A stretch of 32,218 nt of DNA from a virus. A program made the position numbers and the translations under genes. The notes under the pieces are model-generated. The model had not been told where the DNA came from, did not search any database, and saw nothing but the letters and a program-made list of their open reading frames with translations. The stretch covers positions 1-32,218 of IMG/VR virus record IMGVR_UViG_3300030329_003514, one strand, 5' to 3'. Shown in pieces: positions 1-32,218 of this stretch. Every line of letters begins with the position of its first letter. Position 1 is the first letter of the stretch.

Positions 1-2704
1 TTATTGTCCCATTAGCATACATTTCAGCATCGCCATCTGAAGACATATAAACCTTAGTCACAGACCCATTACCAAGAGTTACTGAATTGTCTGCTACTCC
101 TGTCACTCCATATCCAATAACAGTTTGGTTAGTGGCAGAAGCGTCGTCTGTAGCTGTCTGACTGCCTAATAATGTATTATAAGTTCCAGCCACGATGGCA
201 TCACCTGAACTTTCACCAAAAGCCGTATTCGACCTTCCTGTAGCATTTTTGAGTGAGCCATATCCGACTGCCGTACAATGACCAGTTCCACCATCTCCCG
301 CTGTTAAGTCTTCTAAGGCTTGATAGCCAATCCCGACGCACCTATTAGCTGATGTCAGGGATGTGAGAGCAGATGAGCCTATTGCTACAGTTCCTCTGCT
401 ATTTGCAACATCGTTAGTGGCAGTAGATTGTAATGCTTCAAATCCAATAGCTACACATTGGTCTATGTTTCCTACACCAGCATTATAGCCTATTATAATA
501 TTATCATCACAACCAGATGAGTTTATAGCTGAACCAGCCCCAGAGCCTATAACAACATTATTGGTTTCACCACCATCTGCCGCTGATAAAGCATTGTAAC
601 CCATTACTGTATTATGAGAATTATTTCCCATTGCATCTCCCGCATGAGAACCTACTACTGTATTGCATTCTCCAGTACAAGTTACTAATGTGTTATATCC
701 AAATGCAGTATTATGATTTGCCGCTACAGTGGCTTTTCCACTCTGATAGCCAACAAATGTAGAATATTGAGCTTCTGTAATAGCCAACCCTGCATTATAT
801 CCCACAGCAACCGTACCATCTGCATCAGCATTATTAACTGCCGCTAAAGCCCCAGAGCCAACCGCAACACAATCAGAAGTTGTCGTGGAGACCAATAATG
901 CACTTTGTCCGATTGCGACATTTTCATCTCCAGTAGTTATCTCTTTCCCAGCACCATGTCCAATCAGAGTATTATTTAATCCACCAGAAGCAATATCTTC
1001 CCCAGCCAAATAACCCAATAATGTATTTCCAGAAGTGGAGTCTGCTCCACCAGTACCACCACTATCATTATTCGATAGTGAGATTCGGGAGTTGTCATCA
1101 ATGACCATACGAACATTACCAGCTCCAGCTTCTATCTTAGTCACACCATTTGTTTGGCAGGCTCCAATGGTGAATACTCCTGTACTTTGAGTGTTGGTAA
1201 TTCTTGCGGCTTGTGTATCTTCAGCACAGCCAAAGATAATCTTTGCTGTGGCATCGTGGTCAGAAATAATACTTATACCAGCGGATGTACTTCCTTCAAC
1301 CACCAACTCATCGGCATCTGCATGAGCAGTTGAACCACTATCAGCAGTTTTAACATGGAGCTTACCGAGAGGAGATGTCTCCCCAATCCCGCAGTTGCCT
1401 GAAGAGTCAATCGTCATTCTTGTGGGTAAAGTTTCACTCGATGGAGCTGTCTTAAAATGTAAACTACCGACAGAATTTGAAGTTGTTCTTTCAAATGTAA
1501 TTGCACCCCCCGGTGCATTGGTAGCGGCTTGATTTGACGAAATTCTAAAACCTATGCCTACTTCTTCATTATTATCATCTGCGGCATTTCTAATCATTAA
1601 AGCAAATTTATCTTGGTCGGCATCATCAGCCGCATCTAAAGATGTTTCTATCGTCAGTGGAGAATAAGGAGTAGTTGTGCCAATTCCTAATCTTCCTGAG
1701 CTATCCAACCTCATGCGCTCGGAACTATTAGATGCAAATACAAGCGAATTTCCATCATGGATATAACCAATCCATGCTTGATTCGTAGTGTTAGCGGTGT
1801 CGCACCAAGTGAGATAGCCAGAACCATCTGTCGGATTTGCTATTGTAATTCCACCCACTGAACCTGACCCAGAGCTAACGACTAAAGTCCTAGAACCTAT
1901 ATTATATGAACTGGGTGTAGCTGTATTTATTCCGACGTTTCCCGAACTATCAATTCTAAACTTCTCTGCATCATTAGTATGGATTGCTAAATAGTTATCA
2001 GTATGGTCATATTTAATACGACCAATATTTGTATCTCCAGAATCGCCAAAGTTGATATCACCAGTATCGTTTGTAGCTGAAATCATTTGCAGTCTTGCGC
2101 CTGTACTGGAACTTCCAGCTTCTATTTTAATGACTGCATTATTTGAATCATTTTGCACATGAAGAAGTTCATCTACATTCGCACCAGTTCCAATGCCCAT
2201 CAAACCAGCCGATGTGATTCTCATGCGTTCAGCTAACGCACCACTTGCAACTTCCGTACTAAATGCTATATGAGCAGAATCATTTGCTCCATCATTTTTT
2301 GCTGAAATTAATGCAAGCTGACCATCTACTGCTCTATTTCCAAATGATATTTCACCCAATGTTCCATCTGTTGCTGATGTGTACTGCTCAAAATACATTG
2401 TAGGTGCAGAGCCTGAAGGAGCAGAGATATGCAATGTACCAGTAGGGCTGGATTTGTTTATACCAATTTTTTGATTCGTCGTGTCCACAAGCAAAGTGTC
2501 GCCCCCGTCACTATCTTTCCTCACGAGGAAGGCTTCTGTATTGGTTACATCTATTACTGATGTACCTTCAATGATTTCGTCGAAACTAAGACTGCCATCT
2601 CCATCCACCTGGAGATCACCATTTATTACTAAATCTCCTGTAATTGTACCGCCTGAAGCGATTTGCGCGGATGTAGTGCTTATTAAATTCTTGAATGATG
2701 CCAT
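1..2704 (-). CDS. Tail fibre protein A (C-terminus beyond left edge)
   Basis: This open frame starts with ATG at 2704 (MASFKNLISTTSAQ) and runs off the left edge without a stop, giving 901 visible codons. The first ~85 residues look like a virion-anchoring domain. After that come units of the type SSGNVGINTATP, SSGRLGIGTTTP and SSGNCGIGETSP, then a long series of NTxIGxxAG-like repeats (NTLIGHGAG, NVAIGQSAL, NTAFGYNTL, NTVMGYNAL) resembling the beta-roll heads of trimeric adhesins. The last visible residues (LGNGSVTKVYMSSDGDAEMY) are what usually precedes an S74 intramolecular chaperone, so that domain is probably just outside the window. The role is inferred to be host recognition at the tail tip or side fibre. 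Residues from about 87 on are paralogous to fibre B at the right end, with a 77-bp stretch identical. Confidence 0.85.
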   Translation of the reverse strand, partial: MASFKNLISTTSAQIASGGTITGDLVINGDLQVDGDGSLSFDEIIEGTSVIDVTNTEAFLVRKDSDGGDTLLVDTTNQKIGINKSSPTGTLHISAPSGSAPTMYFEQYTSATDGTLGEISFGNRAVDGQLALISAKNDGANDSAHIAFSTEVASGALAERMRITSAGLMGIGTGANVDELLHVQNDSNNAVIKIEAGSSSTGARLQMISATNDTGDINFGDSGDTNIGRIKYDHTDNYLAIHTNDAEKFRIDSSGNVGINTATPSSYNIGSRTLVVSSGSGSVGGITIANPTDGSGYLTWCDTANTTNQAWIGYIHDGNSLVFASNSSERMRLDSSGRLGIGTTTPYSPLTIETSLDAADDADQDKFALMIRNAADDNNEEVGIGFRISSNQAATNAPGGAITFERTTSNSVGSLHFKTAPSSETLPTRMTIDSSGNCGIGETSPLGKLHVKTADSGSTAHADADELVVEGSTSAGISIISDHDATAKIIFGCAEDTQAARITNTQSTGVFTIGACQTNGVTKIEAGAGNVRMVIDDNSRISLSNNDSGGTGGADSTSGNTLLGYLAGEDIASGGLNNTLIGHGAGKEITTGDENVAIGQSALLVSTTTSDCVAVGSGALAAVNNADADGTVAVGYNAGLAITEAQYSTFVGYQSGKATVAANHNTAFGYNTLVTCTGECNTVVGSHAGDAMGNNSHNTVMGYNALSAADGGETNNVVIGSGAGSAINSSGCDDNIIIGYNAGVGNIDQCVAIGFEALQSTATNDVANSRGTVAIGSSALTSLTSANRCVGIGYQALEDLTAGDGGTGHCTAVGYGSLKNATGRSNTAFGESSGDAIVAGTYNTLLGSQTATDDASATNQTVIGYGVTGVADNSVTLGNGSVTKVYMSSDGDAEMYANGTI

Positions 2705-2713
2705 GATATACCT

Positions 2714-3046
2714 CTACGCTAAAACGATGCGTACAGTGGATGTAGCACCTTTACCCAAAAGATGTAAGTAGACAGTCGCACCTATACCTTGTGGAACATT
2801 GAGTTCATAAATAGTATCACCGCCAGCCAGATACAAACTGTTAGAAGCATTAATCATATCGCTGGCCGATGCGCTAAATCCGTAGTATACATCACTACTG
2901 GGTTGCAATATAATGCTATGTATAGCGCTGACATCTAAATTGTATTCAGTGCTTGTGGTTACACTTTGTGCGGATTGTACGGAATGATTTGCAGAACTGC
3001 TTATATTCAGTGACTCTACCACTGAATGCTTGGAAAGATCAGCCAT
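2714..3046 (-). CDS. Small virion-associated protein of unknown function (110 aa)
   Basis: The 110-residue protein is rich in Ser, Ala and small polar residues, has no membrane segment and no cysteine. A good ribosome site (AGGAG, about 8 bases upstream) precedes the ATG. It ends 10 bases before the fibre A start and lies downstream of the capsid gene, so it is cotranscribed with structural genes. The composition (SSDVYYGFSASAS, LYLAGGDTIYELNVPQG) suggests a beta-rich structural protein, for example a capsid decoration or fibre-associated protein, but I recognise no family and this is inference from place and composition only. Confidence 0.6.
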   Translation of the reverse strand: MADLSKHSVVESLNISSSANHSVQSAQSVTTSTEYNLDVSAIHSIILQPSSDVYYGFSASASDMINASNSLYLAGGDTIYELNVPQGIGATVYLHLLGKGATSTVRIVLA

Positions 3047-3106
3047 CTTGTTTCTCCTTTCTAAATGCCTTACCGAGCGTGACTTATCTCATGGGCATTT
3101 CGGTTA

Positions 3107-3292
3107 TTATTCTATGATACCTTGATTTCGTAAACTGGCATCTGATATTGATTTCATATGGATGGTTGGACTGGCAAACAATTTGCGAACTTTTTTTGAT
3201 TTGCATTTTGGGCAAGTAATCTTATCATCCTTGGACCATAATAGTTCCCATTTATAGGAACAACGATTACACAAAAAATCGTTAGTTTTCAT
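3107..3292 (-). CDS. Small zinc-ribbon protein (61 aa)
   Basis: The N-terminal half carries two CxxC knuckles, CNRC at residues 8-11 and CPKC at about 27-30, separated by about 15 residues with aromatic and Lys residues between them. This is the pattern of short zinc ribbons of the FmdB/rubredoxin-like type. The C-terminal half is basic and then polar. The ATG overlaps the TGA of the gene before it (ATGA), so translation is probably coupled. Zinc binding is well supported; the biological role is not known. Such proteins are common as orphan genes between capsid and tail genes in phages. Confidence 0.65.
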   Translation of the reverse strand: MKTNDFLCNRCSYKWELLWSKDDKITCPKCKSKKVRKLFASPTIHMKSISDASLRNQGIIE

Positions 3293-3450
3293 TTCTTTTT
3301 CTTTAAACTAATTTTTTTCTTGGCTTTCTTCACGACACCATCAATATTACAAGGTTCGCAGCCATCAGCGATATATTGATCGATTTGTTCTTTACTTATG
3401 CTATCAACTTTGCCGAATACAGAGCCATCTTTTCTTTTAAAGTATTTCAT
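3289..3450 (-). CDS. Small Lys-rich protein (53 aa)
   Basis: The frame starts MKYFKRKDGSVFGKVDSISK and ends in a run of lysines (KKISLKKKK). It is preceded by AAGGAG 6-7 bases before the ATG and directly follows the terminator hairpin behind the capsid gene. The stop overlaps the start of the zinc-ribbon gene by the ATGA arrangement. It has a CEPC pair near residue 31-34. It resembles short phage head-region proteins that begin with a YxxKDGS-like beta hairpin, but I assign no function. Confidence 0.55.
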   Translation of the reverse strand: MKYFKRKDGSVFGKVDSISKEQIDQYIADGCEPCNIDGVVKKAKKKISLKKKK

Positions 3451-3462
3451 ATTATCTCCTTG

Positions 3463-3497
3463 AAAAATAGCGGGATGATAAACACCACCCCGCTATT
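3463..3497 (-). terminator. Hairpin terminator behind the capsid gene
   Basis: On the minus strand AATAGCGGG (3497-3489) and CCCGCTATT (3474-3466) form a perfect 9-bp stem with a 14-base loop, followed by a T run at 3467-3463. It starts 19 bases after the capsid stop. The next gene begins only 13 bases beyond the T run, so this is probably a partial terminator that lowers expression of the genes downstream of the capsid gene relative to capsid, not a true end of the operon. Confidence 0.75.
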
Positions 3498-3515
3498 ATT
3501 ATGAGTAATCCAGGT

Positions 3516-4628
3516 TTATGGATTGTTGAAGTTAACCACTCCAAGTGATGTGCTGGAAGCACCATGTGATAAAGACGCGCCAAACAAAATGTCGGCTACC
3601 ACGCTTGTGGCGAGGTGGTCAATATCATAGGCCGACTGCACGCGAGGTGCAATCTGCATTGCCATGTACACTGCTTCTTTTTTGAAAACAGACGCACTTT
3701 CATCACCTGTGCCACCATCATCATCCCAATCAGTTGAGATGTATGTTGGCATACCATAGATCATGCCTACGCCTCCAGAGACATTAGGATTCTGCTCATC
3801 ACCTCTGCGAGATGAATCATAGAAATCCTGTAGACTCAAGAGATACATGTACGCAGCAGGAGAAGCATACAAGAATGTTTCACCATCTGCGTAATCAAAA
3901 CCTGCATCAAGCAGCTTTTGAAGTCCAGTACGCAAGAGTGCGGATGTGACTTGATTGTCTGTTCCAAGAGTTACATCATTACCAGTTGCGGATTGGATAA
4001 TATCCACTGCCAAGTAGTTTTCTACCTTTTTCGCCAGCGCATAGCCCATAGATTGAGCATATGCACCAAAAAGGTTTGCACTTTCTTGGACGCGAACAAT
4101 ATCATCAATACGTTTTGCTTCGTAATGATGTTGATCAACACTAATTGTGACTTCACCATCAGTATTGTTGGTGTAAGTTACCGCAGTTCCTGCGGATTTC
4201 GATGCAGCAGTCTCCTCTGTTACCTTGGGGATATGTAAAGTATCGCCAGTGGGCATTTCGGATGAGAAGTCCATCACCTGATTACGTAAGACAAACTTAC
4301 GTTCTGCATAGTCTAATATGGCATCCCGCCATCAAGTGTTACAGTGAGTTTTTTATCTCACATCCCAGCGTTTCCACTGGGTATCGGCATATCTCTTCTA
4401 CTCAGTAAGTGGTCGCGGACTCGTGGATGGATTATATCTTTTCACCATCTATGCTCTGCCCCTGGCTGCGCTAAACGCAGCCTTCGGTTCGGATTGCCTT
4501 ATGCTAATGCACTTAGGTTTCCCGCTTAATTCCGCAATAATAATAATCATAGTTACCTATGAAAACGTCCTGTCGAACTCAGGGATGAACTTAGCCGCCG
4601 TGGTGGGTGTTACGTTACCATCAGCCAT
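3516..4628 (-). CDS. Major capsid protein, split by a group I intron (exons 4628-4576 and 4332-3516)
   Basis: Joining exon 1 (4628-4576, 17 codons plus 2 bases) to exon 2 (4332-3516) gives 289 residues and restores ...AAKFIPELWRDAILDYAERK..., the FIPE(I/L)W N-terminal signature of P22-coat-like HK97-fold capsid proteins. Further downstream GDTLHIPKVT (the typical GD-hIPK strand), a long helix with RIDDIVRVQESANL and GYALAKKVENYL, and a Gly-rich C-terminal region follow. The start ATG at 4628 has AAGGA seven bases upstream and follows the scaffold gene directly. Unspliced RNA would give only a 23-residue peptide (stop within the intron); a GTG-initiated frame beginning at 4277 would lack 36 residues including the conserved motif. 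The family assignment rests on motifs and on position downstream of scaffold, portal and terminase. Exon borders are inferred from frame, the protein motif, and the U-before / G-at-end rules of group I introns. Confidence 0.85.
4333..4575 (-). ncRNA. ORF-less group I intron in the capsid gene (IA-like)
   Basis: This 243-nt sequence interrupts codon 18 of the capsid gene. Helices, in intron numbering (base 1 = 4575): hairpin 15-28 CATAG-GTAA-CTATG (P2); P3 TTGCGGA 39-45 with TCCGCGA 157-163; P4 CGGG 52-55 with TCCG 83-86; P5 CCT 59-61 with AGG 77-79, extended by GTGC/GCAT; P6 GGCTGCG 94-100 with CGCAGCC 106-112; P7 GCAT 122-125 with ATGC 186-189, giving the G-C pair expected at the guanosine site; P7.1-like GATGG 127-131 with CCATC 146-150; P8 167-178; P9 CCCAGTG 195-201 with CGCTGGG 206-212 around a GAAA loop; P9.1 GTGAG/CTCAC 215-232. 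The sequence ends in G (4333) and exon 1 ends in U. GCGGGAAACCTAAG and AGAGATATGCC match the conserved P and S elements. P1 is weak: GAGTT of the exon may pair with GACgTT 7-12, with U.G at the splice site. There is no room for a homing endonuclease. Confidence 0.85.
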
Positions 4629-4639
4629 TTTTCAATTCC

Positions 4640-5185
4640 TTATTGACTTTTACGCTTGTAGGAATCCACGATATTGCTCCAATTCATGCGTCTATCTTCG
4701 TCTTTTATTTTACGCAGTTCAACACTGCTATCATTCATAGGCGCAGATGGAGCGCTGGATACCGCCAAGCGTTGATTTCTAAATTTCTTGACAATTGCAC
4801 GAAGTGAATCTATGGGTAGCTTCCCAAATGCTTCGTGATCATCCTCGGGTAATTCACTAAGAAGTTCCGCACGTAATGACGCTTCTTGTTTTTGCGCCAT
4901 CTCAACAATGGGTTCGAGTTCCTGGAGCTTAGTAGCTCTTTCTTCGGCAAGAGACTTCCATTGTTCCTGTTCTTCTAATTGTGAAATCCGAGTATTCTCG
5001 ATTTCTTTGCGGAGTTTTGCAAGTTCTTGCTCTGCGCTTTGGGCGCGAGATCGATATTTCTTGCTCTCCGCTATCAGATTACCAACTTCGAGTTGCTGTT
5101 GGTTCTGTTCTGCTTTTTGTTCTGGACCTACAGGATCAAGTGTAGATTCTGGCACTTCCTGTGCAACTGCTTGTTCTTCGGACAT
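4640..5185 (-). CDS. Scaffolding protein (181 aa)
   Basis: The protein is highly charged and mostly helical: an acidic N-terminus (MSEEQAVAQEVPESTLDP), a long coiled coil of Glu, Lys, Gln and Arg from about residue 40 to 115 (AEQELAKLRKEIENTRISQL), and a basic C-terminal tail ending VDSYKRKSQ. This composition, the length of 181 residues and the place directly upstream of the capsid gene (12 bases apart) are typical of phage scaffolding proteins, whose basic C-terminal helix-turn-helix contacts the coat protein. The family is recognised by architecture, not by a catalytic motif. No protease gene is visible next to it. Confidence 0.8.
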   Translation of the reverse strand: MSEEQAVAQEVPESTLDPVGPEQKAEQNQQQLEVGNLIAESKKYRSRAQSAEQELAKLRKEIENTRISQLEEQEQWKSLAEERATKLQELEPIVEMAQKQEASLRAELLSELPEDDHEAFGKLPIDSLRAIVKKFRNQRLAVSSAPSAPMNDSSVELRKIKDEDRRMNWSNIVDSYKRKSQ

Positions 5186-5194
5186 ACTGCCCTC

Positions 5195-5659
5195 CTATAT
5201 GTTGATTTGAACGCGTGTCTTGCTCATGCGTGATAGGTTCTTGCCAATTGTATTGGCGAAGTCTTTGACGATTCCGTTTTCAACAAAATCGCCTAATTCT
5301 TGGTTTTCTGCGATGGATCGCTTTGGTAATCGCTTGTCAGGCACGCCAGTGCTATGCTCCATCATCTTTGTTCCTTGCTTATTTTTCTTAATACCATATA
5401 AAAACTGAATTTCCTGATTCTTTTTAACAGTCACACGCTGTACATCAAATGCATTAAGCATTTTACCAGTGAGTTTCAGATCAACTGCGCTGCGTGACAC
5501 TCCCTTGCGTTTAGCATAAGCGGGATTATATGGCTTAAAAGGTTTATTTTCAAAATCAAAACCTGCACTAATCTGTTTTTTATGGTTTTTGACAGCATTA
5601 TCTGCCATATCTTTTACATCAGATTTAGTAAACTTGAGTATATCTTGAAATTTAAACAT
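5195..5659 (-). CDS. Virion morphogenesis / head-tail joining protein (154 aa)
   Basis: The sequence is basic and begins with a helix (SDVKDMADNAVKNHKKQI) followed by NKPFKPYNPAYAKRKG and LKLTGKMLNAF. The pattern of a Pro/Tyr-rich loop with xYAKRKG, then LxxTGxMLxAF, is what I know from the phage virion morphogenesis (Mu gpG-like) and HK97 gp10-like families. It lies between the Mu-F-like gene (8-bp overlap at its start) and the scaffold gene, which fits a head or head-tail completion role. The exact role is inference. Confidence 0.6.
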   Translation of the reverse strand: MFKFQDILKFTKSDVKDMADNAVKNHKKQISAGFDFENKPFKPYNPAYAKRKGVSRSAVDLKLTGKMLNAFDVQRVTVKKNQEIQFLYGIKKNKQGTKMMEHSTGVPDKRLPKRSIAENQELGDFVENGIVKDFANTIGKNLSRMSKTRVQINI

Positions 5660-6323
5660 TGATTGGTTTAAAGTAATGCCTGCAATTTACGCCACCACCA
5701 TGCTCAAATCCATCTGCTTTAATTTGACGTATCTCATCTATCGTTAGTGGATCACTGGCAAGAAAGGTTCTACAAATAGGACGAGTTTTCTCATCATCAG
5801 GACCTATATATTCATATAATGTATCTTCTGGCTCATCTAAGGCCATGACAGCAATGACAGAACGTCTATAGTCACCTAAAAGTGTGCCAATTATATTTTC
5901 CATGCGTGGAACATTTGATCTTACCGATGTACGCATTACATCTTTCAATGCTTCACCACGTAAACCGCTTGACAATCCACTAACCATAGAATTTTGCATT
6001 GCGTTGGTCACCTGTCTCGTTACGCCTTCAATTCCTTGGCGCTGTAAATTTTGTAAAGCCACAAGTTGTATTTCGGATGCACGCCCAAAAAACGGCAAAT
6101 CATCAAGAATATCTTCCGTTGTAGCCATAAAGGAGTTAATTGCGGTAGAAAAGCGTAACTCGTCAACAAAATAGGACGTAAAGTCAATTGCAGCGATAAC
6201 TCCCAATATTTCAGTTGTAGATAAACCTTCTTCTTCCAATTCATCCACATCTTGCTGAAATCCATTGATTGCGACATCGAGACTATTTTCATAGCTGTTA
6301 ACTGCCTGGTCTATTGTTGGCAT
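5652..6323 (-). CDS. Minor head protein, Mu gpF / SPP1 gp7 type
   Basis: The 223-residue protein is helical in its first 150 residues. Its C-terminal ~60 residues hold the signature of the Mu-F-like minor head domain: YIGPDDEKTRPICRTFLAS, then a spaced GGGVNCRHYFKPI with Cys and His residues that are strongly kept in the family. Family members ride inside the procapsid bound to portal and are thought to act in DNA delivery or head assembly. It overlaps the end of the portal gene by 26 bases, the usual portal-MuF order. It is shorter than many members, which have ~300 residues. Confidence 0.85.
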   Translation of the reverse strand: MPTIDQAVNSYENSLDVAINGFQQDVDELEEEGLSTTEILGVIAAIDFTSYFVDELRFSTAINSFMATTEDILDDLPFFGRASEIQLVALQNLQRQGIEGVTRQVTNAMQNSMVSGLSSGLRGEALKDVMRTSVRSNVPRMENIIGTLLGDYRRSVIAVMALDEPEDTLYEYIGPDDEKTRPICRTFLASDPLTIDEIRQIKADGFEHGGGVNCRHYFKPINV

Positions 6324-7668
6324 TGCTTGTTAGGATGTTAAGTAAACGATTTTGCGGAACTTCTTCTTGATTAACAGCGTCTTGCTGTTCTTGAAAACGT
6401 GCGCGATCCATTTCACTGGCATCGGGATTGTGATAGTCGAACCAATCCATAGGACTTGATAACTGTCTCGAAAAACGCCAATCCCACAGAGCAATCTCCG
6501 CTTCAGGTGTAAGTGCGTAGTTCGGTTCGAGAAAATCAACACTATATTCATCTCCTACGTTCACATTCGCTTCAATCTCCAAAATTCTTTTGTCTACTTG
6601 ATACCTGCGCTGTTCCCAAGGTCGCCATGTATCTTCCGTCATTGCATTGCGCTCATCGACATTCTCCATTTCGATTATACTTAAACTCGCTGCGCTGGGC
6701 GCATTGCCTGAGTCATCTCTGGCATATTTGGCGCGGATATGGTTGTTATTTAGAGTAGTTTCCACTAAAAATCTTGTCGAGTCGATAATCTGATTCAGAT
6801 TACCACCACTGGATGTCACACCAAAATTACTTTGCTCTGGTAAATACAAAATTTTGTCCGTACCAATAGTAATACGTGATGGATCATCGACTCCAGTAAC
6901 AAATTTAATTCCCAAACACCCATAACGGATAGCAAGATTCAATTCTAATAGCGCTACATTCACTGCTAAGTCAGTTTGTACTACATCCATTGCGTCACCT
7001 ACGTGATAATCACGGATCGGTGGGTAGCGGTGGCAAAAAGTCACTGGTAGCATACCATACGGATTTAAATCCTGATCATTGACACTGATAATCGTACCAT
7101 CTTCATCAACTAAAAAATGCCTTCCAGGGACACCATAACGTTCTTCCGTCCACACAGCGTGAACCACATCATTCATACGTGCATTACCTTGATTCTCAAT
7201 CGGATACATAATACCGATAGGCTTATCTCTCGCATCGCCAGCTAAAAATAGCGGTGTGAAGTGAGATAGAATCTCGTATTCTACTTTTTGCGTTACTTCA
7301 TTCCATTTGGAACGAAACGCCATTGTTCCCAGTAAAAAGGTCAAACGCTCCAGGATTCTACGCTGCGCCTGTAAACTATGCTTATCGATATACGATAAAT
7401 AAGACTCACTGGCACGCATGCGCGGTGGACGTTTGTATGTCATTGAGCGCAGACTACAGACGCGACGTGTTAAATTATTTTGTGGGATCACTGTTTGACG
7501 TAATGTCTCTGGCCCGAAGTAATCACTAACATAACTGTCAAGATTGATACCTTCGTAGAAGTCCATCAAATAATCACGCTCACGAGTGCGCTCATCCTCG
7601 ATATACTGTAAGTTTTGTTTTAACGCAGATAATATTGCGCTTTCTGATTGATCTTGGATAGTAAGCAT
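6298..7668 (-). CDS. Portal protein (456 aa)
   Basis: The length, the place between large terminase and the Mu-F-like gene, and features such as the N-terminal YLMDFYEGINLDSYVSDYFG segment, a central beta-rich part with PVTFCHRYPP and a long helical region followed by EIEANVNVGDEYSVDFLEPN identify it as the portal, the dodecameric DNA gateway at one capsid vertex. The C-terminus is Gln/Asn-rich. The ATG at 7668 follows the terminase stop by 12 bases (GGTAGAAG upstream serves as ribosome site). Family assignment rests mainly on gene order and size, with motif support moderate. Confidence 0.8.
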   Translation of the reverse strand: MLTIQDQSESAILSALKQNLQYIEDERTRERDYLMDFYEGINLDSYVSDYFGPETLRQTVIPQNNLTRRVCSLRSMTYKRPPRMRASESYLSYIDKHSLQAQRRILERLTFLLGTMAFRSKWNEVTQKVEYEILSHFTPLFLAGDARDKPIGIMYPIENQGNARMNDVVHAVWTEERYGVPGRHFLVDEDGTIISVNDQDLNPYGMLPVTFCHRYPPIRDYHVGDAMDVVQTDLAVNVALLELNLAIRYGCLGIKFVTGVDDPSRITIGTDKILYLPEQSNFGVTSSGGNLNQIIDSTRFLVETTLNNNHIRAKYARDDSGNAPSAASLSIIEMENVDERNAMTEDTWRPWEQRRYQVDKRILEIEANVNVGDEYSVDFLEPNYALTPEAEIALWDWRFSRQLSSPMDWFDYHNPDASEMDRARFQEQQDAVNQEEVPQNRLLNILTSNANNRPGS

Positions 7669-7680
7669 ATTCTTCTACCT

Positions 7681-8988
7681 TTAAAAAAAATCGATGACAC
7701 CAGCGTGTCGGTTCTTCATGGGAAATAAATTCGTTAATAGAAAACGCAGCGCATCGCAATGATGATCAAACTTACCATCTTTCTGCGGTTCATGGCGTAA
7801 AGTCTGGTTTTCTCTGTGTTCGGGATAATGATAATTTTCGTAGGCTTCTATACTGGCCTTGCACTTGGGATTAATGAACAAATGCGCATCACCATTAGCA
7901 TCTTCAAACCACCTGCGCACATGAGATACACCAGATACTACGTTACGAGTGACTGCGTCACGACGTACATTCACCTTTAAGGAATTTTTCTGAAACACAG
8001 CGATATCTGAGATACCTGACTGCAAATTAGTACCACTACCCGCAGGATCACCCCAGATACCTGTATACGTGTAACCAAGTGAGTTAAGTTTTCTTGCAAA
8101 TTCTTCTGTGCGCACATTCTGTAAGTTCAACTCATCTATCTGGTAAACATCAGCGAAATTCTTTTGCTGATTATGGAGCTGCACTATAACGGCTGCGCTG
8201 TGGCGATAACCAAAATCTAAACCAACATACACTGGCTTGGATGGATCATACTTCGCCTTCTCCGTTACCTGAGAAAAACGATCCATCGGATATACCTTGC
8301 CCGCATAAGACTGAAATTCACAAAGTATCTCCTGGAGATATGTCTCCTTCGTCAATGTGCGCTTTAATTCTTCGTGATCATCCTTGAAATATGGCGATGC
8401 TGTAGACGGAAATCTCCATGATTGCCATTCTGGATACTCAGTGCTTTGACCATACTCATACAGCTTATGTAAATAGTTGAATCCGCGTGGCGTGGAACAA
8501 AATAACGCCCAGCCCTGCCTATCAGACAGCGTTGGGCGAAGGTACATTTCAAACGTATTGCGCGGTATTAATGCCATTTCATCACAAATTAAATAATCAA
8601 TTCCTTCTCCGATCAATGAATCAGGTGCATCTGCTGACTTCACTACGAGTTCACTATTCAAACCTGCCAACTTCATATAGTACAAATCGCCAGAAATCTC
8701 TTTCTTACTTTCCACTGGAATGCGTAGCTCAGTCATTATCACCCGCTTTACTTCACGAGCAATCTTATTTGCCAGTGAATAATTAGGACCTACGATCCAA
8801 CCACGTGTATTCGGTGTGAGTAACCAAGGCAGAACTTCGTGCGCTGCCATGTAAGATTTTCCGCTACGCCTGCCCATTAAGCAAACGCGCCATCTCGCTT
8901 TACTGCTATGAACGGCCAACTGCTGTGGAGTCGGGTTGTATCCCAAGATCCTCCATAGCTTTTGCTTGTTCACTATTTGTTGTATCAA
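7681..8988 (-). CDS. terL: Terminase large subunit
   Basis: The packaging ATPase-nuclease shows all parts in order: Walker A MGRRSGKS at residues 38-45, Walker B DYLICDE 131-137, coupling motif FCSTPRG 163-169, then the RNase H-like nuclease with D258 in GLDFGYRHSA, D314 in WGDPAGSG and D408/D412 in FDHHCDALR. Length (435) is normal. The first possible start is a TTG at 8988, inside the small subunit gene (83-bp overlap); a GTG 15 bases later (8973) is equally possible and neither has a strong ribosome site, so the first few residues are uncertain. The motifs start only at residue 38, so function is not affected. Confidence 0.95.
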   Translation of the reverse strand: MIQQIVNKQKLWRILGYNPTPQQLAVHSSKARWRVCLMGRRSGKSYMAAHEVLPWLLTPNTRGWIVGPNYSLANKIAREVKRVIMTELRIPVESKKEISGDLYYMKLAGLNSELVVKSADAPDSLIGEGIDYLICDEMALIPRNTFEMYLRPTLSDRQGWALFCSTPRGFNYLHKLYEYGQSTEYPEWQSWRFPSTASPYFKDDHEELKRTLTKETYLQEILCEFQSYAGKVYPMDRFSQVTEKAKYDPSKPVYVGLDFGYRHSAAVIVQLHNQQKNFADVYQIDELNLQNVRTEEFARKLNSLGYTYTGIWGDPAGSGTNLQSGISDIAVFQKNSLKVNVRRDAVTRNVVSGVSHVRRWFEDANGDAHLFINPKCKASIEAYENYHYPEHRENQTLRHEPQKDGKFDHHCDALRFLLTNLFPMKNRHAGVIDFF

Positions 8989-10736: not shown

Positions 10737-10765
10737 CAAACAAACAAAAAAAAGAGAGGTAAATA

Positions 10766-11122
10766 ATGGAAATCAAATTACATGGATATCAAGTAACTGA
10801 AGCTATTTCGCAATATCTAGAAAACGAATATACAATGAACATTGAGGACATTGGTTATATTGAAACAATGTGTATAGATCTTGATAATGATGAAGTATTA
10901 AAATCACCAATTCATTTTCAAGAAAAGAGAGAATGGAATGAAGAAAAAGAAAAATGGGAAACTTTAGAAAAATATGAAATAGAAGGTATATACATTAAGC
11001 GTAAAAAAGAGAATGGCACAAAATCATTTTACACTAAATTAACGGCAAGTGATTTTAGAGAACCAGAAATACATGAAAACATGAATGGTTTATCTATTTG
11101 GATTGTTAGAGATGTTCGTTAA
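10766..11122 (+). CDS. Hypothetical acidic protein (118 aa)
   Basis: This is a charged, soluble protein with many Glu and Lys residues (EKREWNEEKEKWETLEKYEI) and no recognisable motif, Cys pair or membrane segment. It follows the Gp88-like gene by 29 bases and has the operon's standard ribosome site AGAGAGGTAAATAATG. The alternation of strand-like stretches with a charged middle suggests a compact alpha/beta fold. No function is assigned. Confidence 0.6.
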   Translation: MEIKLHGYQVTEAISQYLENEYTMNIEDIGYIETMCIDLDNDEVLKSPIHFQEKREWNEEKEKWETLEKYEIEGIYIKRKKENGTKSFYTKLTASDFREPEIHENMNGLSIWIVRDVR

Positions 11123-11156
11123 ATCAATTGATAAAACTAAAAAAGAGAGGTAAATA

Positions 11157-11297
11157 ATGGAACAAATCATAAATGACTGGTATCTATTACATTACATAAT
11201 GAATCCGTATATATTGGTAAACTTTAGTTGGATGTATGTAATCATTACAGTGACTAAATTAATTACAAAAACAATAAGAGAGAGAGGTAAACAATGA
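11157..11297 (+). CDS. Small membrane protein (46 aa)
   Basis: The frame (MEQIINDWYLLHYIMNPYIL...) has one hydrophobic segment, roughly residues 17-33 (YILVNFSWMYVIITVTK), followed by a basic tail (TKTIRERGKQ). It has the same AGAGAGGTAAATAATG start context as its upstream neighbour and its stop overlaps the next start (ATGA). Reality is supported by this spacing; the function is unknown. Confidence 0.55.
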   Translation: MEQIINDWYLLHYIMNPYILVNFSWMYVIITVTKLITKTIRERGKQ

Positions 11298-11455
11298 AGA
11301 GAGAGAAAGGACGTGCAACGCTTGTTTTAACACTGTCAAATGGTGAATTGATTGCATATAATGAAAATAATGCGCGTGTTCTACATAGGCGCAAAATGTA
11401 CCAAGGCGAATGGGATGAGTTATGGTCTTTTATTGCAAAAGAAAAAAAACAATAG
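11294..11455 (+). CDS. Hypothetical protein (53 aa)
   Basis: The sequence starts MKREKGRATLVLTLSNGELI and continues with a basic stretch (RVLHRRKMYQGEWDE). The gene is read from an ATGA overlap with the preceding gene, again behind AGAGAGGTAAACAATG. The TLVLTLSNGELIAYNENNAR segment looks like two beta strands joined by a turn. No family recognised. Confidence 0.55.
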   Translation: MKREKGRATLVLTLSNGELIAYNENNARVLHRRKMYQGEWDELWSFIAKEKKQ

Positions 11456-11466
11456 AGAGGTAAACA

Positions 11467-11550
11467 ATGAAAAAAGTAATTAACTGGCTTAAATACTACG
11501 TTTATTTAAGCGTTTTTCTTATGGTAGCTAGGTTATGTTTGAATTTCTAA
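11467..11550 (+). CDS. Tiny membrane peptide (27 aa)
   Basis: MKKVINWLKYYVYLSVFLMV and seven more residues follow the fourth copy of the AGAGAGGTAAACAATG context. A basic N-terminus precedes one hydrophobic helix. The conserved start context is the reason to accept so short a frame; function unknown. Confidence 0.45.
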   Translation: MKKVINWLKYYVYLSVFLMVARLCLNF

Positions 11551-11608: not shown

Positions 11609-11633
11609 CCCGCAGCAATGCGGGTTTTTTTTT
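11609..11633 (+). terminator. Rho-independent terminator of the plus-strand operon
   Basis: CCCGC (11609-11613) and GCGGG (11620-11624) form the stem around AGCAAT, followed by nine T residues (11625-11633), with a run of A residues before the stem. It lies 8 bases after the last plus-strand stop. Confidence 0.9.
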
Positions 11634-11634
11634 G

Positions 11635-11810
11635 ATCACCTGCTCACCTGCTCACTTGATCACCTGCTCACTTGATCACCTGCTCACTTGATCACCTGCT
11701 CACCTGCTCACCTGATCACCTGCTCACCTGCTCACCTGATCACCTGCTCACCTGATCACCTGCTCACCTGCTCACCTGATCACCTGCTCACCTGCTCACC
11801 TGCTCACTTG
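11635..11810. repeat. 22 tandem copies of an 8-bp unit (A/C)TCAC(C/T)TG
   Basis: The array is exactly 176 bases, 22 units without any insertion or deletion. Three unit types occur: ATCACCTG, CTCACCTG and CTCACTTG, in a non-random order. Every ATCACCTG unit creates a TGATCA (hence GATC) at its left junction, eight in all, including the first. It starts one base behind the terminator's T run, between convergent transcription units. A reading frame through it is an artefact of the repeat. Confidence 0.95.
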
Positions 11811-18352: not shown

Positions 18353-19453
18353 CTAAAATTCTTCTTCTATCCTCATAGAGATATTAAATACATCAGGTGC
18401 AACCTGATCCATTTGAAACGAATTTTGAGAAAATCTTGAGAAGAGATAATCTCCTTCAGCATCAGTACCAGTTGAATCTTTATCAGCAGTAAAAATAAAT
18501 GGAATATGATTTCCATGAGTGATATTCCACACATCTTCGACAACTGTATCTTCGCCGTATTGAACAGAGGCATACTTGGTTGGCATTATATCACTGCTTG
18601 CTAGATAACTGAAATTAAGATCATAAGCAACTCTTCCTCCGTACATCGTCCAATTTTTAGATGCTAATTTGAAAGGAGATTTCGTTGTTCCGCTTTCAGA
18701 TTGTCCTCCGAATGACGTCATGGTAGAATATCTTTGCCCACCCACTGATTCCTGGATTTTGGTTTTATCAAACATAATTGATCTTGTCAAATTTAAATCT
18801 GGCCTTTGACTCATGTCGTAATACTCTCCAATCATTATGTTCGATACATACAGCGATGTACTGCTGTCAAAATCTCCATCTGTAGCTGCTGCTGACGTAT
18901 CTCCATTAGCACCTTCAAATTGTATCCCCCAATAACGCAAATCTTGTTGGTCAAAAGAAAAAATAGTTGATCCATCTGCTGCTGGCTCAATTACGACGCT
19001 TTTATTGTCGGCAGCTGTATTAATGCTATCAGCATTCAGAATTTGTGTCACTGTTACAGAACTCCAATTAATATCACCAGTAGATGCCCCCGCGCCATCT
19101 ACGTCATCTACTTCAGTAGCTGCTGATCCAGCAAAAATTCGTATCTTACCTTGTGCTGAGTTAAGGTTATGATTCAAAATCGCTATATAGTTTTGCTTAT
19201 AGTTTTCACTTTGAAGATCAATATTGATCAATACATGATCTGCTCTCTTCGTTGCATCAGAATGAGTGTCCCAACTGCATTTATTTAGCGGTTTCATGTC
19301 AAATAACTCTGCTTCGCTTCCAGCCGTAAACGTACTTATAAGGTCACTGCCACTGATAACATCAAATTCGCCATTTTGCGCCACACCTCGCGCCATTAGA
19401 TAGTTAATTATGTCAGTGTAAAATCTCGGTGTTCTTATATTCATATTTGCCAT
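18353..19453 (-). CDS. Tail protein downstream of hub (366 aa)
   Basis: A Ser/Asp/Thr-rich, beta-structured protein beginning MANMNIRTPRFYTDIINYLM and ending with NSFQMDQVAPDVFNISMRIE. Its start overlaps the stop of the hub-like gene. It is the last gene of the tail module, where baseplate or tip proteins are found. Sequence repeats or catalytic motifs are not visible. I call it a tail tip or receptor-associated protein from position and composition only. Confidence 0.55.
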   Translation of the reverse strand: MANMNIRTPRFYTDIINYLMARGVAQNGEFDVISGSDLISTFTAGSEAELFDMKPLNKCSWDTHSDATKRADHVLINIDLQSENYKQNYIAILNHNLNSAQGKIRIFAGSAATEVDDVDGAGASTGDINWSSVTVTQILNADSINTAADNKSVVIEPAADGSTIFSFDQQDLRYWGIQFEGANGDTSAAATDGDFDSSTSLYVSNIMIGEYYDMSQRPDLNLTRSIMFDKTKIQESVGGQRYSTMTSFGGQSESGTTKSPFKLASKNWTMYGGRVAYDLNFSYLASSDIMPTKYASVQYGEDTVVEDVWNITHGNHIPFIFTADKDSTGTDAEGDYLFSRFSQNSFQMDQVAPDVFNISMRIEEEF

Positions 19454-22266
19454 TATGCTATTTCCCTTGCTGTAATACTTACTTTTCCGATACGCCTATT
19501 GGTCTGCGTAATCATAAAAAATTTACTTGCACTAAAATCTGTGCCAAAAATCTCTATTGGCATATCAGAAAAAGTGACTATGTCACCTGTTTCTAATTGA
19601 TAGCCTTTTGCTGGATTGACAACATCAGCAGTAATAATTGCTTTCATATCATCTCGTAAATTGGATTGATATGAATACCAATCTGCGTTGCAATCACTGT
19701 TGGCACTACTTGGTATTGTACCAACATTATAGTCTAAATTAAATTCTTCTTTGCCTTCTTTTTCACCTAAATTATATTTTACACGCTTGGTATTGTCGGT
19801 GATATTCTGCGTAGCATAGTAGCGATTTGCTTCCGCAGGATGCAATTTGTTATTCACTGTAGCATCCACTAAAACGGATGATAGTCCAGTAGTTTGAAGC
19901 TGAATGTTAATTAAATCTTTTTTCGATAAATCTAAGGATGCAGATAATTCACTGGATTGCTTCACATAAATATATTTGAGATTACCTGTCGCTGGTGATA
20001 TCTTATACACAAAACAAAATTCATACGCAATTTTATCAAGTAACGCTTGTAAAGATGTCGGTTCTAACGCCCAAAATCTAATTTTCCACGCATCAATTGC
20101 ACGATCAGTATCCAATGCACTCCAATTATCTGGATCGCTACTACTAATACCGCCAAATCGTTGCAATAAGTCGCGGTGAGCATCATGTCCATGCGAAATT
20201 GCTCCTGAATCCCAGGATGCTGTAAGTCCAGCAGCTCCACAATAAAAATAATCTAAATCTGCTAATCTCTTTGCATCATCATCATTATAATTAAATCGAT
20301 TCTCATAACGTAACTGTATATCATATACACGCAGCTCGTGATCTTCGTGATCATATAATGGCGCATTGTGTTCTGCTTTCCATTTGATCAGTAATTCATC
20401 TGGGCATAATAATGCATTTTCACTCGCAATAGAATTAGCTGGTTGAGTGTTAAATGAAAACTCATGAGTCGAGATACCGCTTCCTATAAGTTTAGTAGAT
20501 GGAGTCGATAATAAATCATCTGCTGTAGAATCATATTCATTACTGAAAAAATCTACTTCATACTGTTGATCATCTCCCGAACCATCATCCCACTGTATAC
20601 TATACTTAATCTTCACAGCATCAATAATAGTGACTGCAAATTGTTTATTAGGAGTTTGCACTGTTAGATATCTTACATCATCAATGTCATTTATATCTGC
20701 GGTTGCATATGTAGATGTATCGGCTGCTCCCGTGTCTAAATTAAAATCAGTAGCGCGTTCTGGATTGGTTAAATATGTTACTGATCCAGAAAAATCAAAT
20801 GAAGATTGATTCGTGCGTATATAACCAATTGCACGTTGATCAGTGGGTGTTTCTAATATATTAACACCATTTTGTGTGATTGTTGTTTCCACTAAATTTG
20901 TGCCAGTACCTTCCTGACGTATAGAACAAAAATGGTCATACCCAACATAATGATGTAAATAACAATTTGAACCAGATGTGTATGATCGCGGCATTAATGT
21001 AGTAATAATGTTCCTATCAGTGTACAATATGGGGACTGGGAATACACCTCCATAAGCTGCATCATTTTCTGCTCCACTTTGCGCATCAGAATAATTATAA
21101 CTCCCATATACTACAGGTTCATATATATTGTATTTTTCATGCTGCACTTGCGGAATAGATATTTTATCCCAAGGTCGATGGCTATGGATATCTAATTTAA
21201 TCTTTTGGTCATTTAAGGTAACATTGACTAAGCGACCAACGAAAATCTGTGAACAAGACGCTAATGTACTCTCACTACCATAGCGTGCATATACCTTTAC
21301 AACTTTGTTATGAAAGTCGGAAGGTCCATTATATATAATCTCTGATAGTTTTCGTGAATCAATATTGACATCAAAGGTTTCGATGCTAATATTAGATGTA
21401 GATGATGTGCCTTGAACGATATCAATGCTGTCACGTATACTGATTGATGGTGAGAGTACAGAACCATGAAATCTATTGGAACTAATCGTAGTATCAGCGA
21501 AAGCTAATCCAAATGCATGGATGCGTTCATCAAAGTTATTCAGCGACCATGTGGCATTATTCAGTGTGCCTGTATTACTATTAGTGCTACTATCATATAC
21601 TGTTGTACCAAAACCTTCATTCAATTTCCAGTATCCCACTAATCCACTTGCTGTGCTATCGACCATTCTATTATATGATTGATTAATTTCACCCGCAGTA
21701 CGTGCTATGTTCCAAACACGGACATGCGCAATTTCTCCATCAAATTCATTACCACCATTATAATCAGCGCCAATCGTCACCAGACCATCGCCACCACCTG
21801 AAGGATCATTGGCTACACCACTAGCTGTACTTGAAGTTATGAGAGCGCCATCAACAAAATATCTGAATGTTGAATCATTATCATTTCTACTTACAGCAAC
21901 ATGATGCCAATTATTAGCAGTAATGGCAGATGTTGTCGCAGTGACTGCTGCATTAGAACCCGTACCATATTCATAAAAGACTTTTAATCCCGCATTTGAT
22001 AAAGACATATACCAATTCGTATTTTTGGCAGCAGTGCTACCATCATGCCCTCGGGCCACAATGACTTGTTCTCCACTACTACCGCTATATGCGTCTGGTT
22101 TGATCCACGCTTCTAAGGTAAAACTGGTATATAGACCTAATACATCACCAAATGAAATATTATCTGCACTACCATCAAATTCTACGCAATGTTCATTATC
22201 CGCACTAAACTCAAATAACCAATTCTCTGTTATATTTGAATTAGCTGGTGTATTTGAAATCGCCAT
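19453..22266 (-). CDS. Tail hub/baseplate protein with an N-terminal LamG domain (937 aa)
   Basis: After the first ~24 residues (MAISNTPANSNITENWLFEF) a LamG/concanavalin-like lectin domain spans about 25-240: CVEFDGSADNISFG, LEAWIKP, NNWHHVAVSRND, FRYFVDGALI, and IAHVRVWNIARTAGEINQSY are its hallmarks. From about 245 the protein continues as a tail hub-like body (HAFGLAFADTTI, SISIRDSIDI, then KVYARYGSES) to a C-terminal part with NPAKGYQLETGDIVTFSDMP and KVSITAREIA. The layout suggests a sugar-binding domain added to a hub or central tail-tip protein. It starts one base inside the tape-measure stop. Function in receptor binding is inferred from LamG. Confidence 0.75.
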   Translation of the reverse strand: MAISNTPANSNITENWLFEFSADNEHCVEFDGSADNISFGDVLGLYTSFTLEAWIKPDAYSGSSGEQVIVARGHDGSTAAKNTNWYMSLSNAGLKVFYEYGTGSNAAVTATTSAITANNWHHVAVSRNDNDSTFRYFVDGALITSSTASGVANDPSGGGDGLVTIGADYNGGNEFDGEIAHVRVWNIARTAGEINQSYNRMVDSTASGLVGYWKLNEGFGTTVYDSSTNSNTGTLNNATWSLNNFDERIHAFGLAFADTTISSNRFHGSVLSPSISIRDSIDIVQGTSSTSNISIETFDVNIDSRKLSEIIYNGPSDFHNKVVKVYARYGSESTLASCSQIFVGRLVNVTLNDQKIKLDIHSHRPWDKISIPQVQHEKYNIYEPVVYGSYNYSDAQSGAENDAAYGGVFPVPILYTDRNIITTLMPRSYTSGSNCYLHHYVGYDHFCSIRQEGTGTNLVETTITQNGVNILETPTDQRAIGYIRTNQSSFDFSGSVTYLTNPERATDFNLDTGAADTSTYATADINDIDDVRYLTVQTPNKQFAVTIIDAVKIKYSIQWDDGSGDDQQYEVDFFSNEYDSTADDLLSTPSTKLIGSGISTHEFSFNTQPANSIASENALLCPDELLIKWKAEHNAPLYDHEDHELRVYDIQLRYENRFNYNDDDAKRLADLDYFYCGAAGLTASWDSGAISHGHDAHRDLLQRFGGISSSDPDNWSALDTDRAIDAWKIRFWALEPTSLQALLDKIAYEFCFVYKISPATGNLKYIYVKQSSELSASLDLSKKDLINIQLQTTGLSSVLVDATVNNKLHPAEANRYYATQNITDNTKRVKYNLGEKEGKEEFNLDYNVGTIPSSANSDCNADWYSYQSNLRDDMKAIITADVVNPAKGYQLETGDIVTFSDMPIEIFGTDFSASKFFMITQTNRRIGKVSITAREIA

Positions 22267-29638: not shown

Positions 29639-29932
29639 CTATCGATCTACCACTTTATTATTTACTAATTTATGTTTAACAATGTCAATGCGCCCATGAC
29701 CATTAGAATGCTTTTTAGCACATTCCTTCACAAATTCTTCTTCACAAGTTTGAAATGAGTCTGATCGTTTAACGATTTCACCATCTACCCAAAGGAAGTA
29801 ATCTTTTGCCGAAGATGGATAAGTAACTGAACTCATAGAGCCATCAGATAATTTAATAGTTTTAACCATCTCTGGCTTCGTATTCTTATGAAGTACCACA
29901 TCGTGATCTTGAGCGCATCGACGTACAATCAT
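29639..29932 (-). CDS. Hypothetical protein (97 aa)
   Basis: MIVRRCAQDHDVVLHKNTKP is followed by KTIKLSDGSMSSVTYPSSAK and DYFLWVDGEIVKRSDSFQTC EEE-like helix with two cysteines. It overlaps the gene before it by 4 bases. It has an alpha/beta look; I recognise no family. Confidence 0.55.
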   Translation of the reverse strand: MIVRRCAQDHDVVLHKNTKPEMVKTIKLSDGSMSSVTYPSSAKDYFLWVDGEIVKRSDSFQTCEEEFVKECAKKHSNGHGRIDIVKHKLVNNKVVDR

Positions 29933-30138
29933 GCTTCTACTTCTTCAGGTTTAGCATTTAATGATTCCCGAAGAACATGAATTTGACCAGCTTTCCATCG
30001 ATCTAATCTATTGATCTGGACTTGATAGTTGTTGATGTCTTCCAGTATTGATTTCTGATAATCAGTCATGTCTTCTATGATATACTCTTTATCATCAAGA
30101 TTCAAGACTGGCTTTTGTTCGTTGTCTTTTTTAGCCAT
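29929..30138 (-). CDS. Hypothetical charged protein (69 aa)
   Basis: MAKKDNEQKPVLNLDDKEYI and MTDYQKSILEDINNYQVQIN with RLDRWKAGQIHVLRESLNAK indicate a short beta hairpin followed by a helical hairpin. AAGGAG precedes the start. It directly follows fibre B and may be a fibre chaperone or small structural protein, without direct evidence. Confidence 0.55.
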   Translation of the reverse strand: MAKKDNEQKPVLNLDDKEYIIEDMTDYQKSILEDINNYQVQINRLDRWKAGQIHVLRESLNAKPEEVEA

Positions 30139-30163: not shown

Positions 30164-32218
30164 TTATTTTGCTTCTAATTCTTCTACTCTTGCAGATAAT
30201 TCTTGCACTGCTTTTATTAATGGAAATATAAGATTGCCATAGGTTAAAGTTTTAATACCATTTTCTTGAGTAGGTGCATAAGTTTCTGTATTCCCAACGC
30301 CATGCTTTGCAAGTGCCGATAGAACCTCTTGTGCAATTAATCCAACTTGTGTTTCTGTTGGGTCTTTTGGTTTTTCTACACCATCTTCATCCCATTTACT
30401 ATCTCGTATTTCGTCTGGAAAATCTGCTGGATTTTTGTAGATATATGTTTTTAGGTTTAATTCTTTTATAAAATCAACACCTTTTAAATCATAATCTGCT
30501 ACATCTTTTTTAGTTCTTTCATCTGAAGAATATGCAGTTATGCTTGTAACTTGTGCTTTAATAGCTGATATACTGGTATTTCCTAATGCTATTTCATTAT
30601 CACCAGTTCCTGTGACACCTTGACCTAGCGCAATTTGATTTACAGCTCCACCAGAGCTTACATTTGCTTGTGAACCTAAGCAAGTATTACTATGTCCATT
30701 GGTAATTGAATCTCCAGACCCATATCCTACAGCCGTATTTTCGTGGGTTGTATCGTTATTCCCAGCTCCTAAAGACGCATAACCAATAGCTGTATTGAAA
30801 TCAGAGCCAGCGACAAGAGCATCAGCCGCTTGATAGCCCATTACAGTATTACGAGACCCAGTAGTCGTAGTTTTTAACGCTTCAAATCCAATGACAGTAT
30901 TCCCAAGAGCTTCTGTAATATTTGCCCCAGCTTCTTTTCCAATAGCAATAGTACCATCTGTAGTAGTTTGACCTGCTGATATATCTAACCCAGCGTCTTT
31001 TCCAATTAAAACATTACTTCCAGAAGTCGTAAGAGTCGCCCCTGCATTTTTACCAATAATTACATTTTGATTTCCTTCAGTGAGAGCCACTCCCGCTCCA
31101 CTTCCAATAGCAGTGTTGTTTGCCGCAGACGTTAAAGCGTTTAAAGCAGTGTAACCTATAGCCGTATTATGGTCTGTCGTGGAAGTAAAAGTACCTCTAC
31201 CAGCCCTATAACCAATCAAGGTATTACCATCTGTATCATTAGAACCTACATTTTCGCCAGCTTCGTGACCAATAAATATGTTTCCAACAGCATTAGACGA
31301 CCCCGGCATACCAGCACCATATCCAAAAACTGTACTTGATGAGCCAGTATCATTATTCGATAGTGAGATTCGAGAGTTGCCATCTATAGCCATTATTAAA
31401 GACGGGTCATCCCCAGCCCCTGTTCCACTTGCCGCCCAAAATGATAAACCAGTCGTATCTGCATCGCTATCAGATTGATATGCTACAATAGCGGCTTTTC
31501 TATTATCGCCACCAGCGACTCGTGAAAAACCTATTGATGCCCCATAATTACCAATACCGCTTGAAGCCCCGAGGCTATTGAGGTAGATATTATCAACTGT
31601 GTTATCGTCTGCGGCAAAATTACTTGCTTGTAAAATTTCTAAAGAGGCTTGTGGACTATCAGTCCCAATTCCCACCTTGCCATCATCAGTAATTCTCATC
31701 TTTTCACCAGCACTACCATCATAAACAGTATTGAAGACCATGTAAGTATGACGATTGCCAGCCACGCTACTCCATTGAGATGTACCCATAGCTATGCTAC
31801 CCATATCAACGGCTGTAGTGCCTGTCGAATACTTTTGCCAGCTTAATGCCATTCTCGTATCTGCCGTTGTATCTGTATCGGCATCAAGAATGTTAATTAC
31901 TTTATTGAATCCCCCATCAGTTGCATCTACAATTACATCTAATGGGTTAGATGGTGTCCCGCCAATTCCCACCAAGCCAGTAGATGTGATTCTCATTCTT
32001 TCAGCTAACGCACCACTTGCAACCTCTGTGCTAAATGAAATATGTGCAGAATCATTTGCCCCATCATTTTTTACCGAAATTAATGCAAGTTGTCCATCAA
32101 CTGCTCTATTACCGAAACTTATTTCACCAAGAGTTCCATCCGTTGCTGATGTGTACTGCTCAAAATACATTGTAGGTGCAGAGCCTGAAGGAGCAGAGAT
32201 ATGCAATGTACCAGTAGG
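30164..32218 (-). CDS. Tail fibre protein B with S74 chaperone (N-terminus beyond right edge)
   Basis: The open frame enters at the right edge (PTGTLHISAPSGSAP) and gives 684 residues. Units like DDGKVGIGTDSP are followed by many NTxIGxxAG-like repeats (NTLIGYRAGRG, NTAIGYTALN, NTVIGFEALK), then by the intramolecular chaperone: the last 121 residues begin SSDERTKKDVADYDLKGVDF and contain QVGLIAQEVL and a final coiled coil (FPLIKAVQELSARVEELEAK). S74 domains trimerise fibres and then cut themselves off at the Ser before the DER motif. The first 26 codons are identical with fibre A at DNA level. If the map is circular, joining to 2446 would make a 770-residue protein starting at 2704. Confidence 0.9.
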   Translation of the reverse strand, partial: PTGTLHISAPSGSAPTMYFEQYTSATDGTLGEISFGNRAVDGQLALISVKNDGANDSAHISFSTEVASGALAERMRITSTGLVGIGGTPSNPLDVIVDATDGGFNKVINILDADTDTTADTRMALSWQKYSTGTTAVDMGSIAMGTSQWSSVAGNRHTYMVFNTVYDGSAGEKMRITDDGKVGIGTDSPQASLEILQASNFAADDNTVDNIYLNSLGASSGIGNYGASIGFSRVAGGDNRKAAIVAYQSDSDADTTGLSFWAASGTGAGDDPSLIMAIDGNSRISLSNNDTGSSSTVFGYGAGMPGSSNAVGNIFIGHEAGENVGSNDTDGNTLIGYRAGRGTFTSTTDHNTAIGYTALNALTSAANNTAIGSGAGVALTEGNQNVIIGKNAGATLTTSGSNVLIGKDAGLDISAGQTTTDGTIAIGKEAGANITEALGNTVIGFEALKTTTTGSRNTVMGYQAADALVAGSDFNTAIGYASLGAGNNDTTHENTAVGYGSGDSITNGHSNTCLGSQANVSSGGAVNQIALGQGVTGTGDNEIALGNTSISAIKAQVTSITAYSSDERTKKDVADYDLKGVDFIKELNLKTYIYKNPADFPDEIRDSKWDEDGVEKPKDPTETQVGLIAQEVLSALAKHGVGNTETYAPTQENGIKTLTYGNLIFPLIKAVQELSARVEELEAK
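32142..32218. repeat. 77-bp exact copy of 2370-2446
   Basis: The last 77 bases of the window equal 2370-2446 in the same orientation; the base before differs (C at 32141, T at 2369). Both lie in fibre genes and in the same reading frame. The copy may be a true duplication, or the mark of circular closure in an assembly. Confidence 0.9.

Follow-up and report, generated by a model that had tools for sequence, protein, structure and literature searches.

What does it mean when the right-hand end of a viral contig repeats part of its own interior inside a fibre gene, leaving two different fibre bodies attached to one stretch? The window, meaning the whole stretch of DNA analysed here, spans 32,218 bases and is recorded in IMG/VR as a viral contig. 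An earlier sequence-only reading had reported an exact 77-nt repeat, and our sequence comparison confirmed it: positions 32142-32218 are identical to 2370-2446, and the 78th base differs. The probability that such a match arose by chance is negligible. Beyond the exact run, 2190-2446 and 31962-32218 align over 257 nt at 89% identity, with 20 of the 28 mismatches at third codon positions. This makes the two copies homologous coding sequences that lie in register. Their exact identity covers only the 77 nt at the contig end, inside a longer stretch of homology.

On the minus strand, the left part of the window carries, in order, the capsid gene (3516-4277), a 61-aa zinc-ribbon-like gene (zn61), g110 and the fibre N-terminus with body A, which runs off the left end. 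The right part carries body B, whose start is missing, then g69, g97, several small genes, a 160-aa gene and g323; the 160-aa gene lacks a Pfam match, and its lysozyme-like label rests on its place and sequence. Neither A nor B is complete by itself within the window. The fibre locus consists of the following features.

2447..2704, minus strand: fibre N-terminus, aa 1-86; conserved in relatives, where close-relative alignments usually end as the N-terminus ends
2370..2446, minus strand: 77-nt exact repeat, internal copy and branch point (sequence comparison)
32142..32218, minus strand: 77-nt exact repeat, contig-end copy (sequence comparison)
2190..2369, minus strand: segment of body A with in-register homology to body B (within the 257 nt at 89%)
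31962..32141, minus strand: segment of body B with in-register homology to body A (within the 257 nt at 89%)
1..2369, minus strand: fibre body A, cut short by the contig end; judged against the L010 fibre, about 102 aa with an S74 domain and the stop would be missing
30164..32141, minus strand: fibre body B, which closes with a Peptidase_S74 domain (PF13884) and the stop
2714..3046, minus strand: g110, conserved gene immediately upstream of the fibre (same position in relatives)
29929..30138, minus strand: g69, conserved gene immediately downstream of the fibre (same position in relatives)
29639..29932, minus strand: g97, conserved, downstream of g69 and used as the far flank (relatives)

A protein domain scan identified terminase, capsid, tape measure and primase-helicase, so the window derives from a tailed phage. 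The C-terminus of body B matches PF13884 at 40.5 bits (cut-off 22), which identifies it as an S74 autochaperone. A DNA search of positions 1-8000 against cultured phage records returned short matches only, around 4333-4535, the fibre N-terminus had zero protein matches among such records, and the large terminase reaches no more than about 30% identity with those of cultured phages. Because cultured relatives are so distant, they provide no yardstick.

Joining 32218 to 2447 yields a 770-aa open fibre gene whose sole stop lies at its end (complement of 2447-2704, then complement of 30164-32218), and the resulting circle measures 29,772 bp (32218 minus 2446), both exactly as the sequence-only reading had proposed. 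In related IMG/VR contigs, the gene order capsid-zn61-g110-fibre-g69-g97-lysozyme runs uninterrupted over the proposed join: capsid, g110 and the fibre N-terminus lead into one fibre, and from there into g69, g97, the 160-aa gene and g323, all contiguous. Additionally, six near-full-length relatives of 32.3-34.8 kb close on themselves with the window's gene order and spacing, four through exact overlaps (98 nt in G001, 123 nt each in G003 and G004, 73 nt in G008) and two through inexact ones (984 nt at 95% in G002, 134 nt at 98.5% in G005). The window also closes into a circle, through a 77-nt overlap that is end-to-internal. When we sought other lassos of this kind at the relatives' contig ends, the ends that repeat matched near the opposite end instead. 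Most intervals between conserved genes around the circle agree between the window and the closed relatives. The fibre interval is 2.54 kb in the window versus 2.66-4.90 kb in the closed relatives, and the window's circle is smaller mainly because of this short fibre interval together with short accessory gaps. These comparisons support a circular phage map of about 29.8 kb, a statement about the map that is silent on whether the packaged DNA is circular or permuted.

The relatives also reveal how the fibre changes. We scored 38 pairs of relatives that share 90% identity or more upstream and whose alignment is not interrupted by a contig end. Every one of these pairs, some of which are not independent, falls out of alignment at +143 to +496 nt, counted from the fibre start. 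Within the window, exact identity between the two versions ends at +335 and homology at +515, counted from the same point. Several pairs re-align at the fibre end or beyond, for example L023/L026 and L033/L038. This is a hypervariable fibre locus, in which the flanks and N-terminus are conserved and the body is swapped among close relatives. It is also a place where contigs stop: 29 contig ends lie within 2.5 kb downstream of the fibre start versus 6 within 2.5 kb upstream, counts that are subject to ascertainment bias, since it was by the N-terminus that the loci were picked up. G006, G007 and G009, the three relatives of genome length that fail to close, are open at the fibre, like the window. 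The closest relatives share about 76-80% DNA identity with the window, so none is a same-species genome in which A or B can be seen joined to both flanks.

Several findings, namely the end repeat, the join that stays open, the gene order round the circle, and the relatives' single fibre loci and N-terminus-anchored turnover, make it highly probable that the window is a short-read assembler's lasso through one fibre locus with two co-occurring alleles that have a common N-terminus. The earlier proposal that 1-2369 is an alternative fibre body, from a strain variant or cassette exchange, on a circular map thus gains support from the gene order of the relatives, the six that self-close and the turnover anchored at the N-terminus. 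Under this model, a circular tailed phage of about 29.8 kb would have a single fibre locus, flanked by g110 and g69, and at least two fibre versions would have been present in the sampled population. A (1-2369) and B (30164-32141, with an S74 self-chaperone end) would share the N-terminus through the 77-mer, after which their bodies diverge. On the minus strand, the assembler path would leave the shared 77-mer into body B, circle the genome to the N-terminus, reach the 77-mer again, enter body A and stop, a route that would reproduce the contig. De Bruijn assemblers are known to break where paths diverge, leaving end overlaps of the largest k, or maxK (COBRA, PMC10914622). An assembly at k=77 would fit this published behaviour; the relatives' end overlaps differ in length (73, 98, 123, 123, 134 and 984 nt). 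Two further results, like the distance of the closest relatives, count against the model: the left end of the window has no second copy anywhere in the window and offers no k-mer returning to the loop, and the 77-mer was absent from every other IMG/VR contig in a DNA search from which near records may have been withheld. A and B presumably derive from co-occurring strains. Functionally, the fibre would be an adhesin whose attachment end is fixed and whose body, the part likely to bind the host, is exchangeable.

Some alternatives place both bodies in one genome. It is quite improbable that a single genome keeps two interchangeable bodies for one N-terminus, whether in tandem or by switching; if it did, one lineage would have two host ranges. 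In a tandem arrangement, gene B would follow the end of gene A and have its own, near-identical N-terminus; the genome would then map at about 32.8 kb, with the contig broken where the N-terminal part recurs. A and B are indeed each near-complete and in the same orientation, and the implied size falls within the range of the closed relatives. However, when the region from the fibre start to g97 was searched for ORFs of 300 aa or more, each of the 24 non-redundant relatives carrying both flanks had a single one, of about 610-1540 aa, and the small window circle is explained by other intervals too. The size argument, that 29.8 kb is less than all closed relatives, was set aside when the deficit was found to sit in the fibre, g164-to-nuclease and g105-to-lysozyme intervals. 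The tandem option raised in the sequence-only reading is without precedent in this phage group, and we consider it very unlikely. Switching of bodies within one lineage, whether as phase variation driven by a retroelement or by crossing-over in the shared stretch, is barely credible. Although the identical stretch common to both bodies is a possible crossover site, a scan of the 18 larger proteins turned up neither a reverse transcriptase nor a DNA invertase, the window has no inverted repeats of at least 30 nt, and A and B differ by module-wide replacement rather than by targeted substitutions. With module-wide variation and no reverse transcriptase in those 18 proteins, the fibre does not qualify as the target of a diversity-generating retroelement.

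Other explanations concern the nature of body A itself. Body A aligns along its length to the 1135-aa fibre of locus L010, at 42% overall and about 90% over the last roughly 130 residues, and A's final residue falls 102 aa before the L010 stop, just ahead of the L010 S74 domain. A is thus a near-complete alternative and not the upstream half of a longer fibre, and A and B parallel each other across 87-885 of A. Judging from L010, an S74 domain would be expected beyond A's cut end. These alignments bear on the idea of one very long fibre of about 1,600 aa or more, running from the N-terminus through body A, a second copy of the module and body B to S74. Such fibres are modular and that of L038 reaches 1540 aa, but A resembles a whole fibre, and an exact repeat of at least 50 nt inside the fibre was found in no relative locus, making this reading highly unlikely. 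It is more doubtful again that A comes from a different phage species, misjoined at a shared k-mer, and never sat on this N-terminus. Chimeric joins do seem to occur in the group: the 37.3-kb G017 (loci L144 and L145) has capsid, g110 and fibre N-terminus at both ends (591-2241 and 34678-36547) in versions that have diverged to 72% over 590 nt, and is possibly a chimeric join of two species. Against a misjoin in the window, A stays 89% identical to B for 180 nt past the exact run, and this homologous stretch sits where close relatives carry homologous modules near this N-terminus.

Two co-occurring alleles at one locus would place the window among known systems. Hypervariable tail-fibre loci, or metaviromic islands, have been described in marine phages, and fibre turnover among related phages is known (Mizuno et al. 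2014, PMC3909814). As in those islands, a host-recognition gene has a conserved N-terminus and a remainder that is highly variable among closely related phages; here, however, the variability is read from contig structure and relatives instead of read recruitment, and the window's fibre has another N-terminal type and an S74 end. The contig end also resembles documented maxK breaks (PMC10914622) in that its terminal sequence, over a length often chosen for k, is identical to that of a joinable site, but it overlaps an internal site of its own contig, and k=77 is our deduction. Body B resembles fibres and spikes with an endosialidase-type Peptidase_S74 intramolecular chaperone (PF13884) in ending with S74 above the curated cut-off, whereas many relatives have another C-terminus followed by a phrog_6228 gene. 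We conclude that the match between end and interior most probably reflects a well-known kind of phage variation at one highly variable tail-fibre gene rather than a new genetic device. The 32-kb record should most likely be read neither as a linear genome nor as a phage with two fibres: its map is probably about 29.8 kb, and one of the two fibre bodies is most likely an alternative allele. In this phage group, the fibre body changes fast and is a frequent site of contig breaks, a combination that tends to cost both complete genomes and host-range genes.

Where a relative's fibre does not have an S74-type end, it is followed directly by a gene of about 80 aa with a D-Y-E-V/I-R motif (loci L008, L011, L023, L033, L039, L050, L066, L069, L073, L078, L079, L082 and L091), one member of which matches phrog_6228, a family of unknown function. 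By an automatic count, which placed L021 among the loci without an S74-type tail although it looks S74-type by eye, the gene is present in 13 of 15 loci without the tail motif and 0 of 9 with it (Fisher p 4e-5). The gene may encode a chaperone or assembly factor for the fibre, separate from it and exchanged along with the C-terminus.

Several further observations concern other parts of these genomes. The match to the capsid gene is interrupted for about 150-230 nt, or partly duplicated at its end, in L012, L013, L109 and L138, at sites that vary among the four. On the plus strand of the window, a tandem array of about 22 units of 8 nt (TGATCACC / TGCTCACC) occupies 11633-11808, directly after a hairpin-like GC-rich stretch and between the plus-strand genes and the primase. 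A near-identical leader, AGAGAGGTAAA(T/C)AATG, occurs four times in 10741-11476 on the same strand and is apparently a repeated ribosome-site/start context for small plus-strand ORFs. Finally, between TMP and g366, the window's 937-aa lectin-domain gene (19453-22266) is best matched in G003, G004 and G008 by its C-terminal part only, as if its N-terminal laminin-G-type part had been replaced in those genomes.
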